Positions 32,440-41,788 of a stretch of DNA of 64,000 nucleotides are shown one piece after another (position 1 is the first letter of the stretch; each line of letters starts with the position of its first letter). A model generated the notes under the pieces. That model made no database searches, was not told the DNA's origin, and worked only from the letters and a program-made list of their open reading frames with translations. A program made the position numbers and the translations under genes. Source of the stretch: Spinacia oleracea (lineage: Eukaryota > Streptophyta > Magnoliopsida > Caryophyllales > Amaranthaceae); NCBI RefSeq assembly GCF_020520425.1, contig NC_079491.1, positions 4,885,143 to 4,949,142 of the forward strand. Reading direction: 5' to 3'.

Positions 32440-32585
32440 TATATATATATATATATATATATATATATATATATATATATATATATATATATATATATAT
32501 ATATATATATATATATATATATATATATATATATATATATATATATATATATATATATATATATATATATATATATATATATATA
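32440..32585. repeat. (TA)n microsatellite, about 146 bp
   Basis: Uninterrupted alternating TA/AT. It abuts the left end of the composite element at 32587. The second long tract is at 41679-41788, abutting its right end. Confidence 0.98.
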
Positions 32586-33439
32586 GGGTCCCCCTACAAT
32601 GAGAAGATCACTAAAATGAGAAGAATGAGAAGCGATCTATACCGTCCAAACAAAAAAAATCCAACGGCGCGCGATCTGTCTGACTAAATGAAACATTAAG
32701 GGCAAATTAGTAATTTCGCCGCGTTGAATGACCTTCCCTCACAACGTGATTTTTCGGAATTCTTTCTCTCTCATCTTTCAGTTTTCTCTCTCCTCTCTTA
32801 AAACCTCTCCTGTGTTTCTTCGTGTTCTTCAAATTTGGAAATTCTCCTTGCAAATCTCGAGGTTTTTGGTGATCCTCGTCTTCTTCAGGTACGTATTTGA
32901 TTTTTTTGATATTTTTCAGTTTTTGCTACTTTAATTTCTCTCTTTTCGTTCAATTACTCGATAGTTGTTCTTCATTTTCTTCAACTTACTTGATTCTCCT
33001 TGCATATCTCTTTAGCTTCTTTGCAATCTTCTTTCAATTCTCCAGGGTACGTTTTTTATTTTTTGTTTTTCTTAGTTTTTGTTGCTTTAATTTTTCTCTC
33101 TTCATTCAATTAGTCTGTAGCTTTTTTTCGATTTTTCTGATTATTTTGCTGTTGTTTTCGAAATTACAAATTGATTGCGAAATTGACTTGATTAGTAAAT
33201 TTTGATTTCGAAATATATTGAATTGATTAGTAAATTCTTACTGCGAAATTATGTCAATTATTAACACCTTTTTTACGTTTGATTTGCTCATATTTTTTGT
33301 TGGGGGTTTGATTTGCTCATGTGCAAGTTTCTGGACATCAGTCATATCACAAATCGATTTAGTTCACCCTTAATTTTTTTTAGCAATGGATAGAAGAAAA
33401 TAAATATTATTGTGTTGGGGCTTCTGTTTTTTTAGCATT

Positions 33440-34140
33440 GGCGTATTATAGGATGAAGGGGAGAGATTTCAGTGCTTGTATAGAACATCTGGTGTTTATC
33501 TCTGGAGTCAATTATAGTGCTGTTGTATGTGATAATGTTATGCTGAGCTGCTGAAAATATGTGTTCATAATGAAGGTTCAGTTGGTTTGTATCAGAACAA
33601 TCCACAAATGATGGAAATTTATCAAACTTTAATCAAAGAAAGCTGGGATTTTTCATATGTAGTTGATGTGGTGGTGGAATGAGGTCTTCATATGAGGGAC
33701 TTTGAGATGGAAAGCAAAACATGGTGTTTGCAGGGTTATGTCTTGGAACCTTCAGTGTTTGACACGCTAGAGAAGTACGGCAAGCATATGCCATGGGAGA
33801 AGTCAGATAGACAACTCTTAATTGACTGCTTAAACTCAGGGCTTCTGGACATTTTCAAACCTTCAGTTGGCTTAAATACATGGAAACAATCTGTAACAAA
33901 AAGATTAAGTTAAAGGCAAAAATGTCAGGAGGGCATCGAGGAAGAATTATGGTCGTTGCTGGTGAACCAGCAACAGGAATTCAAGAGGGACTCATTTGAA
34001 TATTTGATAAACTGTATATAAAGGAGATTGGATGGTTAGACTTAGAAGAAGATACAGATTTTATAGTACAAGAAATACAGAGTTTGCTGTTAGCCGAGTT
34101 TCTAGATGAGTTTGCGTGTGAGGTAATATCTTTTTGTTGA
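33440..34140 (+). pseudogene. Captured DUF4378 / TRM-like C-terminal fragment
   Basis: Frames give PSVFDTLEKYGKHMPWEKSD and RQLLIDCLNSGLLDIFKPS at 33750-33860, then YIKEIGWLDLEEDTDFIVQE and LLLAEFLDEF near 34015-34125. These match the C-terminal DUF4378 region of TRM/LONGIFOLIA-type plant proteins as I recall them. Frames change at least twice and a stop interrupts. Non-functional fragment carried in the composite element. Confidence 0.55.
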
Positions 34141-34640
34141 AAGCGTGAGGTGTAGATAGGTGAAGTCAGTGAATTTGTACAAAAGAACTAAATAAGAGAT
34201 GTTTTTCTCTTCCCTATTCATGTCCTGTATTGTTTTCAAGATTTTATTTATCACCAAAGGCCATGTAACTAACCTTCATGTTGTTGCTGCATCTCTGAGC
34301 TACTCAAGGTCTGGATCTCGGGAAGTGTTCTTTACCAGAGAAGTATTTGAAAGTGGTCATTTCTAGTACAACCAATTTGAGATTGATCTGATGGTTTGTA
34401 TTGCTGATATCCTCGTGTCTCTTTGGAGTTCGGAGTACTTAAAATGGAGTTAAAGTGTGTAACTGTAGTATTAGACAATTTTTTCAACAAACCAAGCATA
34501 AGTGTCAAGGTATGTATATAATAACCTTGGAATCTTGATTTGATTTTCTGGTTGCTGCTACTTCTAAGCGTTTCTGAAAAAATTTATGTTTAGACAAAAC
34601 ATCAAAAGTTCGTATTGTGTTGGTACCAACATGAAGTAAT

Positions 34641-34709
34641 GCCTATTAGCTCAATTGGTAGAGCTTTGTGCCATTGCACAATGATGTAGGTTCGAATCCT
34701 ACATAGGCA
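34641..34709 (+). tRNA. tRNA-like sequence, unusual anticodon arm
   Basis: Sixty-nine bases fold as a cloverleaf: acceptor GCCTAT/ATAGGC (6 bp), D-stem GCTC/GAGC with TTGG loop, anticodon stem TTGTG/CACAA, T-stem GTAGG/CCTAC with loop TTCGAAT. B-box GGTTCGAATCC is perfect and A-box TAGCTCAATTGGTAGAGC is good. The anticodon loop CCATTG has six bases instead of seven and the acceptor is one pair short. I therefore call it tRNA-like rather than assign an amino acid. A relative lies at 39410-39479 on the other strand. Confidence 0.55.
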
Positions 34710-35149
34710 ACTCTTGTCTTTTGTTTATGATATTAGTTCTCCTACCGGACTATCCTACATCCATGCTGTTCACTATGCCAGTGATTCCAGTTCTCTAAGA
34801 TTCTTTGTTGAGTTCAACTCCTCTCTCAATACCCGACATAAGCTTTTGTGCATAAAAGGGGCTAACAATTACAACACGGTCTGATTCCAGAATACCCGAC
34901 TTCATCCAGTTAATTTTCCTACCCTTTACAGGTTTATCATACCTGATAAAAATCCTTTGACATTATATTAATTCTTGAACTACTACTTAATTAATCCATG
35001 GAATGCAATATTAATAAGATACTAACTTACATTACCCATCAACGAAATCAAAAGCTAGTTTCAATTCCTCAGGCAGATTAAGATGCGATAATCTTCCAAG
35101 GCAAATCTTCCTTGATATACAATATTGTGAATGCATAAAGCAACCTGTA

Positions 35150-39479: not shown

Positions 39480-39789
39480 TAGTGTTTTTAAATAGAATCA
39501 ACAAAAGTAAAACAAAAACCAAAAAAAGTAAATCAAAATAATTCGAAAACTTACAGCAACAACAACATAAGAACCAACAAGGCCAGAAGTCAATGCTGGT
39601 CCAAGTTGACAAAAACAACAGCAAGGTATACCTGAGATCATGGCTGCCAATCTTTCATGCCCTTCTGCGATGACATGAAAGGGTGTGGTTATCACTCATC
39701 ATTCCATGCATCTACAGGAAAATTTTGGATCCCAGTCACTAGATTCTCCTGTTGCAACTATTGTACCATCAATTACCATGTCTAGTTAT

Positions 39790-40270
39790 CAATGCACCTA
39801 AGCTCAAGTACTTGTCCGGCCATCTCTAGAACGTGTCAGTCTCTCTGTCTCAATGGTTCTGAAAGTCTCCTGTCAGTTTCAATCTTTTTAGCCAAACTGG
39901 TTCAGAATCCTAATAAGACAAGGACACAAGAGTTGATCCAATTTCTTGCAACTCCTTGTAAACTTGAATATCTTTGTTTTACAAGGTACTTTATCAAGGT
40001 CAGTTCAGATATCCTTTCTTGCTCGTTTCCATTTGTATATGTTTTATTTCAACTTTAATGAAAACATTCAATCTTGATTCGATCTGCATTGTGGATCAAA
40101 GATGTTGGTTGCAGGTGGTGTATCAACAATTCTTCCTGTGACCACCTTTACACATGTCACGAATTTGTGGCTAACAGCTCTTCACTCCTGGAAGGAACTG
40201 TCCTGTGTTGTTGCCATAATTCGAAGTTGTCCTAACGTTGAAAAACTACATATATCAGTAAGTATCATTA
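39790..40270 (+). pseudogene. Captured F-box/LRR-type fragment
   Basis: The frame at 40102-40284 reads FTHVTNLWLTALHSWKELSC and AIIRSCPNVEKLHIS, the LRR pattern of plant F-box/FBD/LRR proteins. An upstream piece at about 39900-39985 (IQFLATPCKLEYLCF) may be the preceding repeat, with a possible intron between them. No start or FBD domain. Third captured gene piece in the composite element. Confidence 0.5.
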
Positions 40271-40284
40271 TCAGGATTATTTGA

Positions 40285-41630
40285 GTTACTCTTACATGTT
40301 TCTGTTCTACTAAAACATGTGATTATTTGGCTAGCAAGTCGTATTTTTAAGGCATCACAAAAAATGTTGTTCAGCTTGACAGCTTCGTCTTTTGGTTAAA
40401 AGAGAAAAATGTTGCTACACATTTTTTCTAAGAAAAAATCTACATAATCTAAAATTTTCTGCCTGTGTGGATTAATCTAATGGTGGAGGGTATGACGGAA
40501 TCTCTGCTTGTCATGTAAAAGAGTATTATAGCTAAAACCCTTTCTGAGCAACTGTAAAAAGTAGTTCTCAAGTTTATAATTTCTTACTGATTTCATCAAC
40601 GATAAGTATAGTAGGAACCATGACAGTGTAGTCTATCAATAACAAACTAACAATACTAACAGTGTAGCACTGAAAAAGATTCTAGTAACTAATACATTCA
40701 TCTGATCTGTCAATCCAAAGATTCTAAACCGATGCATTCATCTTGTAAAATTTCAAACAAAAGATTCCAGTAACAAAAATGTCAAACAAAATCTCCTTGT
40801 AAAATTAAGCAACTGTGTGAAGTGTCTAAGAACCACTCAAAGGATCCATGTGTATATATATAAGCTAATAAGAAGAAAGAATCCCACTCAAATATTACCT
40901 GCTGCAAAATACTTCCAGCTTAAATTCTCTGAGGAATTGGTCTCCTGCTCAGGTCCTTCCTTTCTCGAATTATTCTGCAATCCCATGAACTGTGACCAAT
41001 AAAATTGAACTGAATAAGAAATCATAAATCTTCATAGTCATAAACACATAAAAAAAACTTTTAATTTACTATCCAATTTGAGTTAATTGCACCAAAATTC
41101 GACATACTGCAAAAATCAATCACAACACTACTTAATTGCACCAAAATTCGACCTAAATTAACAATTAGAGAAAGAAAGAACAATTTAACCAATAAATCAT
41201 GAAGTAAACATTAAATCTCAACAAAATTGTAATAAAACTCAAAATATAACCCTACAATTTCATAAATTAGCAAAGAATCACTCACCAATTGCAATAAAGG
41301 AGACGAAGCATATATGATGGCAGCGTAGAGATGGTGGCGGCGGTGTGGTTGCAGCAGGTGAGGACACGGTGACTGTGGCGGTGGCGAGAGAGAATCACGA
41401 AGGGAGAGTGAAAATGGAGGAGAGAGAATCACGAAGGAGATGGAGAGCGAAAATGGAGGAGCTCCTGAAAGTGAAGCACAAGGAGAGAGAAAATGGAGCA
41501 CATTTCTGGAAATCGGGAGAGCGGAATATATTTGTTCATATTTCTTTCCAATATTACGATCTTGCCATTACTAAAACGCGAAAATCAGAGATTAGAGCTG
41601 TCAGATCTAATTACATTGAACGCATAAGAT
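40285..41630. other. Right part of composite element, no gene recognised
   Basis: AT-rich to about 41330, then a G/A-rich stretch with repeated GAGAGAATCACGAAGG and GAGAGCGAAAATGGAGG units that mirrors the pyrimidine-rich stretch near 32750-32830 at the other end. Possibly an extended subterminal inverted repeat. Confidence 0.5.
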
Positions 41631-41678
41631 TGCTTCTCATTCTTCTCATTTTAAGCTCCCTTCTCATTTGAGTGCAAA

Positions 41679-41788
41679 TATATATATATATATATATATA
41701 TATATATATATATATATATATATATATATATATATATATATATATATATATATATATATATATATATATATATATATATATATATATA
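41679..41788. repeat. (TA)n microsatellite, about 110 bp
   Basis: Alternating TA directly between the right end of the composite element and the Helitron at 41789. Pairs with the tract at 32440-32585. Confidence 0.98.

Follow-up and report, generated by a model that had tools for sequence, protein, structure and literature searches.

A family of gene-collecting elements in (TA)n microsatellites of spinach carries a convergent pair of tRNA-like sequences

The window analysed here, a stretch of 64,000 nucleotides of the Spinacia oleracea genome (C5:4885143-4949142), contains a 9,091-bp unit (32587-41677) bounded on each side by a perfect (TA)n array, as the first-pass annotation of this DNA had stated, and in which two tRNA-like sequences, hereafter A and B, are directed towards each other from the two sides of a palindromic satellite (Table 1). 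The unit belongs to a mobile, gene-collecting, dispersed and recently active family of elements, approximately 6-20 kb in length, that reside in (TA)n microsatellites and have a constant order of parts: end, arm and cargo, A (inward), satellite and cargo, B (inward), arm and cargo, end. The captured gene fragments vary; the tRNA-like pair, which had at first been listed as part of the mere contents of the element, varies least among the interior parts of the family and is common to elements having different ends.

Both sequences are recognized by the Rfam tRNA model RF00005 (57.3 bits for 34640-34710 on the plus strand and 45.4 bits for 39409-39480 on the minus strand, the gathering score being 29), so that their initial recognition as tRNA-like was correct. 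A covariance model, R1, detected in 26 sources 31 full-length tRNA-like sequences, of which 17 are A, 13 are B and the remaining one, in L041, is a second A-like copy; R1 having been built from most of these 31 sequences, the search indicates their places and the lack of a further full copy. In 13 sources A and B face each other across the satellite. Nine copies were read end to end (the window copy, L009, L010, L011, L012, L014, L022, L027 and the C1 copy L037/L038) and eight of them contain the pair, with one unit on each side of the satellite and both pointing inward. Besides the window, 20 left-end loci were taken, with stretches of up to 10 kb each; 11 of these loci have both A and B and two have A alone (L015, L018).

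The same arrangement emerges from the whole genome (894 Mb, 242 contigs), in which exact patterns of 33 places for A and 34 places for B gave 99 and 107 matches, respectively, the reversed controls giving 0. When all 99 matches of A were paired, at distances of up to 12 kb, with the 100 listed matches of B (out of 107), all 15 A-B pairs proved convergent, with B located 1.2-7.3 kb downstream of A, whereas 0.27 pairs would be expected by chance. Among the matches listed, pairs of B with the left end and with the right end invariably have the one expected orientation (16/16 and 17/17, respectively), and a further hallmark of the element is found within 12 kb of 38 of the 99 A matches. The tRNA-like units sit 1.6-3.7 kb from the border of elements that measure 6-20 kb. 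A tRNA-derived short interspersed nuclear element (SINE) is a short element with an RNA polymerase III (Pol III) promoter at its 5' end and a simple 3' tail; units placed deep inside an element having defined ends are not of this kind, and the SINE assignment was discarded. A prokaryotic or phage source was likewise rejected, a 24-place tRNA-like pattern having given 0 exact matches in viral_contigs and genome_contigs.

In all 31 sequences the anticodon arm consists of 16 nt arranged as 6 + 4 + 6 instead of the usual 5 + 7 + 5; ARAGORN yields no amino acid. Despite the 45-57 bits obtained with RF00005, the combination of cloverleaf and 7-nt anticodon loop typical of a functional tRNA is not found, and normal decoding is unlikely because the arm is made of a 6-bp stem and a 4-nt loop. 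The letters of the A loop are variable (GATT, AATT, GCTT, GATA, CATT and others), the stem being fixed in the search pattern. The cloverleaf pairing is maintained in 97.4% of 506 cells as against 92.9% after shuffling and no more than 47.0% in slid versions, the cells changed on both sides are 26 versus 9.6 in the shuffles and the covariation score is 0.165 versus 0.084; none of these three values is reached by any of 500 shuffles. A and B differ by changes on both sides of acceptor pairs 1 and 7 and of T-stem pair 3, while acceptor pair 2 goes from GC to GU; the second copy of L041 differs from the A of the same locus by changes on both sides of acceptor pairs 1 and 2 and of anticodon-stem pair 1. 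Most likely, A and B descend from one ancestor that already possessed the odd anticodon arm; since this arm is common to both, the paired changes would be later than the loss of decoding. Because the differences between A and B and within L041 are almost all paired changes of the stems, the view that these sequences have been kept for the RNA into which they would fold, the anticodon loop having been lost, is well supported.

All 15 A copies tested possess an intact A box and B box, and a TTTT run occurs within 25 nt downstream of 13/15 A and of 13/13 B, compared with a background of 24%. The conserved stretch starts and stops close to the tRNA-like unit, with the sequence outside differing between copies; in the case of B it extends approximately 25-45 bases more upstream than the unit.

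Table 1. Parts of the (TA)n-bounded element, in window coordinates
Feature	Position	Strand	Evidence
Left (TA)n microsatellite, insertion target	32439..32585, 147 bp	.	Tandem Repeats Finder, 100% matches
Left element end with ATGAGAAG repeats	32587..32686	+	At least 42 genome matches for 32587-32680, own copy counted
Left arm: CT-rich, 5'-UTR (untranslated region)-like, predicted splice donor GGTACGT at 32888-32894	32687..32978	+	Promoter and donor inferred by eye
Captured fragment, DUF4378	33683..33910	+	Pfam PF14309, E 4.9e-12, firm
tRNA-like A, directed into satellite	34639..34712	+	Rfam tRNA 57.3 bits; model R1 102.7 bits
Palindromic satellite, AATGAGCAAA/TTTGCTCATT units of ~40 and ~50 bp	35161..37722 (about)	.	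Tandem Repeats Finder, motif clusters
Captured fragment, armadillo-like, weak	38069..39047, three frames	-	Pfam Arm E 0.057 in one of three frames, under cut-off; none in the other two
Satellite, second block	39118..39400 (about)	.	Motif clusters
tRNA-like B, directed into satellite	39407..39481	-	Rfam tRNA 45.4 bits; model R1 92.0 bits
Captured fragment, F-box/LRR-like	40080..40260 (about)	+	No Pfam match; by-eye reading only
Right arm: CT-rich, 5'-UTR-like, inward, predicted splice donor GTGAGT at 41285-41280	41246..41559	-	Promoter and donor inferred by eye
Right element end	41560..41677	-	At least 40 scored genome matches, own copy counted
Right (TA)n microsatellite	41678..41788, 111 bp	.	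Tandem Repeats Finder, 100% matches

The two ends of the window element, described at the outset as inverted, indeed have in common an inverted block of 42 bp with 86% identity (32598-32638 versus 41668-41627; E 1.3e-7), and their local alignment attains a score of 78 compared with a maximum of 45 among 300 mononucleotide shuffles. The left end reads GGGTCCCCCTmC and the right end ...GTGyAAAT(C). Internal to the ends are the two arms; GGTAyrT is found at the matching aligned position in 13 of 18 aligned left arms, and an arm resembling the right arm of the window is present in 8 other copies read. The palindromic satellite of 2.5 kb is confirmed and is accompanied by a second, smaller block. 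Its core AATGAGCAAA (35161-37722) is similar to the motif AATGAGAAG of the ends (32587-32638, 41627-41677), and the satellite may have arisen from end-like sequence. An empty paralogue of the window site was not found in the genome, the next-best match of the left flank being 72% over 332 of 609 bases. The right flank is itself a dispersed repeat: next to the right (TA)n of the window element (41789-42636) there is an AT-rich sequence starting with GAGGCATATTTGCTG that occurs also at 1835-2374 and 63704-63999; since it lies, oriented, to the right of L027 as well (from 7019), two copies of the element stand beside the same repeat family.

Copies of the two ends, the search for which the first-pass annotation had proposed, lie at dispersed loci with (TA)n flanks and with the same or different cargo; the matches (at least 42 for the left and at least 40 for the right end, the window included) are lower bounds, the best candidates having been scored. 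The right end was found in seven of the 20 left-end stretches, delimiting elements of about 6.3-9.2 kb, and (TA)6 or longer adjoins 17/20 left ends and 7/7 right ends; in L009 the run begins 11 bases away. Pairing of the end matches listed by coordinate yielded 12 collinear left-right pairs 6.0-20.1 kb apart; the single pair in opposite orientation derives from a back-to-back left end. Over its full length L009 is 99.62% identical to the window copy (8,987 aligned bases, 34 substitutions) and L010, also full length, is identical at 99.43% of the aligned bases (49 substitutions), the corresponding values for L011 and L022 being 96.95% and 87.1%. The window copy, L009 and L010 are on three different chromosomes and have unrelated flanks; in a comparison of 14 flanks of seven elements the sole match was between the left flank of L010 and the right flank of L014 (76% over 100 bases). 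The presence of near-identical copies on different chromosomes indicates recent movement, and these three copies, at least 99.4% identical (window versus each), are young enough that insertions may differ between accessions.

Elements are also found joined to one another. In L022 and L039 a right end and a left end are connected via TA, in L027 right-end-like sequence is fused to the left end, and facing ends are 3-88 bases apart at C4:83169872/83169889, C4:141345636/141345640 and C4:100610729/100610818. Other transposons are inserted inside the elements L037/L038 and L039, nesting itself having been the object of no systematic search. Judging by eye from the open frames, the C1 copy (L037/L038, 17.9 kb) contains a LINE-like (long interspersed nuclear element) insertion and the C3 copy (L039, 20.2 kb) Copia-like and hAT-like insertions.

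As to the cargo, of the three gene fragments originally proposed for the window element the DUF4378 piece is firm, the armadillo-like one is weak and the third was read by eye and has no Pfam match; no stop-free stretch inside the element exceeds 161 aa. The armadillo-like cargo has 13 genome matches, 11 of which are long or partial copies. Six are 98-100% identical, namely the window copy, four copies with both ends and a match on C4 that has B and a right end as neighbours; the remaining ones comprise two full-length matches at 94%, three partial matches located near matches of B and two that span 46 bases. On the other hand, what L012, L014, L016, L017, L023 and L028 have in common with the window is barely more than the left end or arm, A, the satellite and B; L012 and L014 have in addition the right end, and the sequence between the common parts differs. 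Pfam identifies a CCCH protein in L023, the right border of which was not found, a GTP-binding elongation-factor domain, over the cut-off, within the stretch covered by the L018/L039 element and, just under the cut-off, a Pyr_redox_2 fragment in L012.

The tRNA-like unit is found also beside a second type of end. L041 has quite different ends, of TGTGAGAAC type, next to (TA)n, and contains A and a second A-like copy facing it 430 bases away, without satellite. The TGTGAGAAC-type end has at least 42 matches in the genome; paired at up to 12 kb with the 99 copies of A, these give 25 pairs against an expectation of 0.11. The end is mostly located 2.4-3.5 kb downstream of A in the same orientation. 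In seven cases it lies, inverted, 1.94-2.04 kb upstream of A, and in all seven the loop is GCTT; this GCTT-loop subfamily (G000, seven loci), with its nearly constant spacing, has perhaps been recently amplified. The pairing of A with this second end type implies that the same tRNA-like unit occurs on at least two types of end.

Which known elements does this family resemble? Micron (rSaTar2) has been described as a non-autonomous Mutator-like element (MULE), since its ends resemble those of an autonomous MULE, in the passages of PMC5907723 considered here; SaTar/MULE is therefore the family with which to compare. The earlier proposal that the unit is a large relative of TA-microsatellite elements and carries genes is upheld by the dispersed copies, the (TA)n flanks and the differing cargo, and must be modified in that Microns are not an isolated group and belong with SaTar/MULE. 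According to the same passages, SaTar elements, studied in guayule, rice, sorghum and citrus, are non-autonomous, have (TA)n on both sides and imperfect inverted ends and form modular clusters in which microsatellites link the end of one element to that of the next (PMC5907723); (TA)n flanks and modular, end-joined, apparently non-nested clusters are what is found also here. In those passages SaTar elements measure approximately 0.23-1.9 kb in the four plants, as opposed to 6-20 kb here, and the spinach elements, unlike those described, contain pieces of genes, a satellite and two convergent tRNA-like sequences (PMC5907723); the word tRNA is absent from the main text of that paper. Similarly, the portions of PMC4486113 considered describe the MuTAnT/AutoMuTAnT elements of Medicago truncatula as having TA microsatellites as target and long flanking TA runs; MuTAnT elements differ in being mostly fold-back elements of 200-300 bp with a known mudrA-like partner and the terminal inverted repeat (TIR) GGGGTTTGCTAGAACA, and a tRNA-like pair is not mentioned in these portions. 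With Pack-MULE and Pack-TYPE elements, non-autonomous TIR elements with host gene fragments whose TIR promoters drive transcription inside, as stated in sections of PMC3310237 and PMC8903248, the spinach elements share the presence of host gene fragments and, probably, the non-autonomous nature; the main texts of the two papers do not contain the word tRNA, and a (TA)n habit is not reported in those sections. A survey of spinach repeats lists 167 MULE-MuDR elements and, as far as its excerpts go, names tRNA solely for primer-site prediction (PMC6337768); no description of tRNA-like modules in TIR elements was met among the top-ranked titles and abstract openings of the open-licence literature.

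On account of the site in which they insert, their imperfectly inverted ends, the gene fragments and the clusters joined end to end, the elements are closest to the SaTar/Micron/MuTAnT group of Mutator-like elements and to Pack-type elements, and are here called SaTar-like. Because the defining transposase was not found, the assignment to the MULEs is tentative; the elements would be non-autonomous, Pack-type Mutator-like (SaTar-type) units moved by a transposase from elsewhere. When the 150 best of 1,960 MULE candidates were scored, three were within 15 kb of the 190 element clusters (0.96 expected). Two of these, L040 and L041, were read, and in both the gene is outside the element, beyond (TA)n; the third is at C4:111005802. 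The genes of L040 and L041 were consequently rejected as the autonomous partner and are possibly neighbours within a (TA)n cluster. The Mutator-like transposase gene of L040 comprises an open stretch of 581 aa.

A possible function of the pair is suggested by its placement. In maize MuDR, as reported in the passages of PMC3310237 considered, promoters located in the TIRs drive two convergent genes. Each arm of the spinach elements would likewise provide an inward promoter and a first exon, both predicted; since each arm seems to contain such a promoter, A and B, placed between the arms and the satellite, would have the sense of these transcripts and mark the 3' side of the left and of the right transcription unit, respectively. 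The tRNA mimic of an inward transcript could be recognized by RNase P and RNase Z, which would cut there, or, alternatively, transcripts made by Pol III could end at the mimic. The convergent transcripts would be halted in this way before crossing the palindromic satellite and one another, and the element could benefit by avoiding double-stranded RNA and hence silencing. A working analogy is the formation of the 3' ends of MALAT1 and NEAT1 by tRNA-processing enzymes, where a tRNA-like structure lies on the 3' side of a long transcript, in the parts of PMC12941219 considered; those are mammalian long non-coding RNAs, whereas the processing proposed here concerns a plant transposon.

Taken as a whole, the explanation that comprises the family, retention of the pair at the RNA level, a non-autonomous Pack-type origin and the cutting or termination of transcripts is the best at hand, with a probability that we put at about 0.5. 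Its most far-reaching form, a lineage of plant DNA transposons with built-in convergent tRNA mimics, in which the cloverleaf and not decoding would be selected, host tRNA processing or Pol III would be borrowed to define transcripts and the module would be exchanged between elements with different ends and captured genes, is a tentative proposal with a fair number of chances against it. Several observations weigh against the overall explanation. The absence of a transposase, noted from the beginning for the window element, extends to every copy read, including those of 17.9 kb on C1 and 20.2 kb on C3 (less 1.9 kb of the latter); a target-site duplication, which in MULEs measures 9-11 bp, is not visible within (TA)n, and the outermost 10-12 bases of the two ends have no inverted correspondence, so that to this extent the ends are not inverted copies and differ from simple TIRs. 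The pairs changed on both sides (5 versus 3.8 in shuffles, 20/500) and the further pair types (9 versus 9.8, 490/500) exceed expectation little or not at all, 13 of 506 cells are unpaired, stems are decayed in some single copies and the T run after A is missing in L023 and L040. Furthermore, since the sequences are related, the shuffles overstate significance, the independent events being few, namely the A/B split and the second copy of L041.

The pair might also be passive cargo, taken up once by an ancestor, perhaps within long inverted arms, and copied since without use. This is the strongest rival because L027, a copy bounded by both ends and endowed with the satellite, has neither tRNA mimic; in fact, the existence of one complete copy lacking both means that the mimics are not strictly needed for persistence. 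Along with the broken stems just mentioned, the same direction is indicated by the seven of 20 left-end loci (L019, L020, L021 and L024-L027) in which the stretch read contains no complete tRNA-like sequence, A being broken in L024, and by the youth of the copies, as a result of which the similarity among A sequences and among B sequences reflects recency in part. L027 and these loci count equally against the overall explanation. What passive copying does not readily account for is that the differences between A and B and within L041 are paired changes with pairing retained, and that the unit, with sharp borders, is retained while its neighbours are replaced, in elements having different ends; all considered, passive inheritance is possible and somewhat doubtful. 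tRNA genes serve as insulators in other organisms, and the two intact boxes, together with the T runs that follow, would suit Pol III units that act as chromatin boundaries or TFIIIC sites parting the two arms, the RNA itself having no use; such a role would need the A box and the B box alone, whereas the paired changes of acceptor and anticodon stems lie outside them and suggest a folded RNA, which makes this reading unlikely.

Read in the direction of the left arm, A comes after the exons that were captured, which would also be compatible with a tag for RNA movement or stability, by which chimeric captured-exon transcripts acquire a tRNA-like structure as in graft-mobile plant mRNAs; tRNA-like motifs are described as moving RNAs across graft junctions in the passages of PMC10344777 considered. 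In L014, L017, L023, L028 and L040 a T-rich stretch ending in AG and resembling a 3' splice site precedes A (by eye); it is missing in many copies, a tag would bring the element no obvious benefit, and this reading appears distinctly improbable. Finally, in the literature excerpts considered, Helitrons and Helentrons are typically large, capture genes and contain tandem repeats, and a rolling-circle element of this kind with captured genes and an internal satellite would account for the general aspect of the unit. Helitrons have 5' TC and 3' CTRR ends and no inverted ends. The ends found here are not TC ... CTRR, inverted blocks are present at both of them and none of the 150 Helitron_like_N places compared has a match of A, of B or of either end at a distance of 15 kb or less; a Helitron origin was rejected on these grounds and has very little to recommend it.

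If the tRNA mimics do act as RNA, the family would represent a DNA transposon with a selected internal RNA structure, and it would show that in plants, too, long transcripts can be shaped by the enzymes of tRNA processing. One and the same system joins two questions, that of gene collection by (TA)n-targeting Mutator-like elements and that of the escape from silencing in the presence of convergent transcription and a palindromic satellite. Even with a passive pair, the family is a large, gene-carrying relative of the small SaTar and Micron elements.

Elsewhere in the window, 53242-56565 (minus strand) contains an open stretch of 1,108 aa that by eye is CACTA-transposase-like, and three long open stretches, all on the minus strand (7099-8283, 19339-20580 and 29560-30876), appear by eye to be related to one another and F-box-protein-like.

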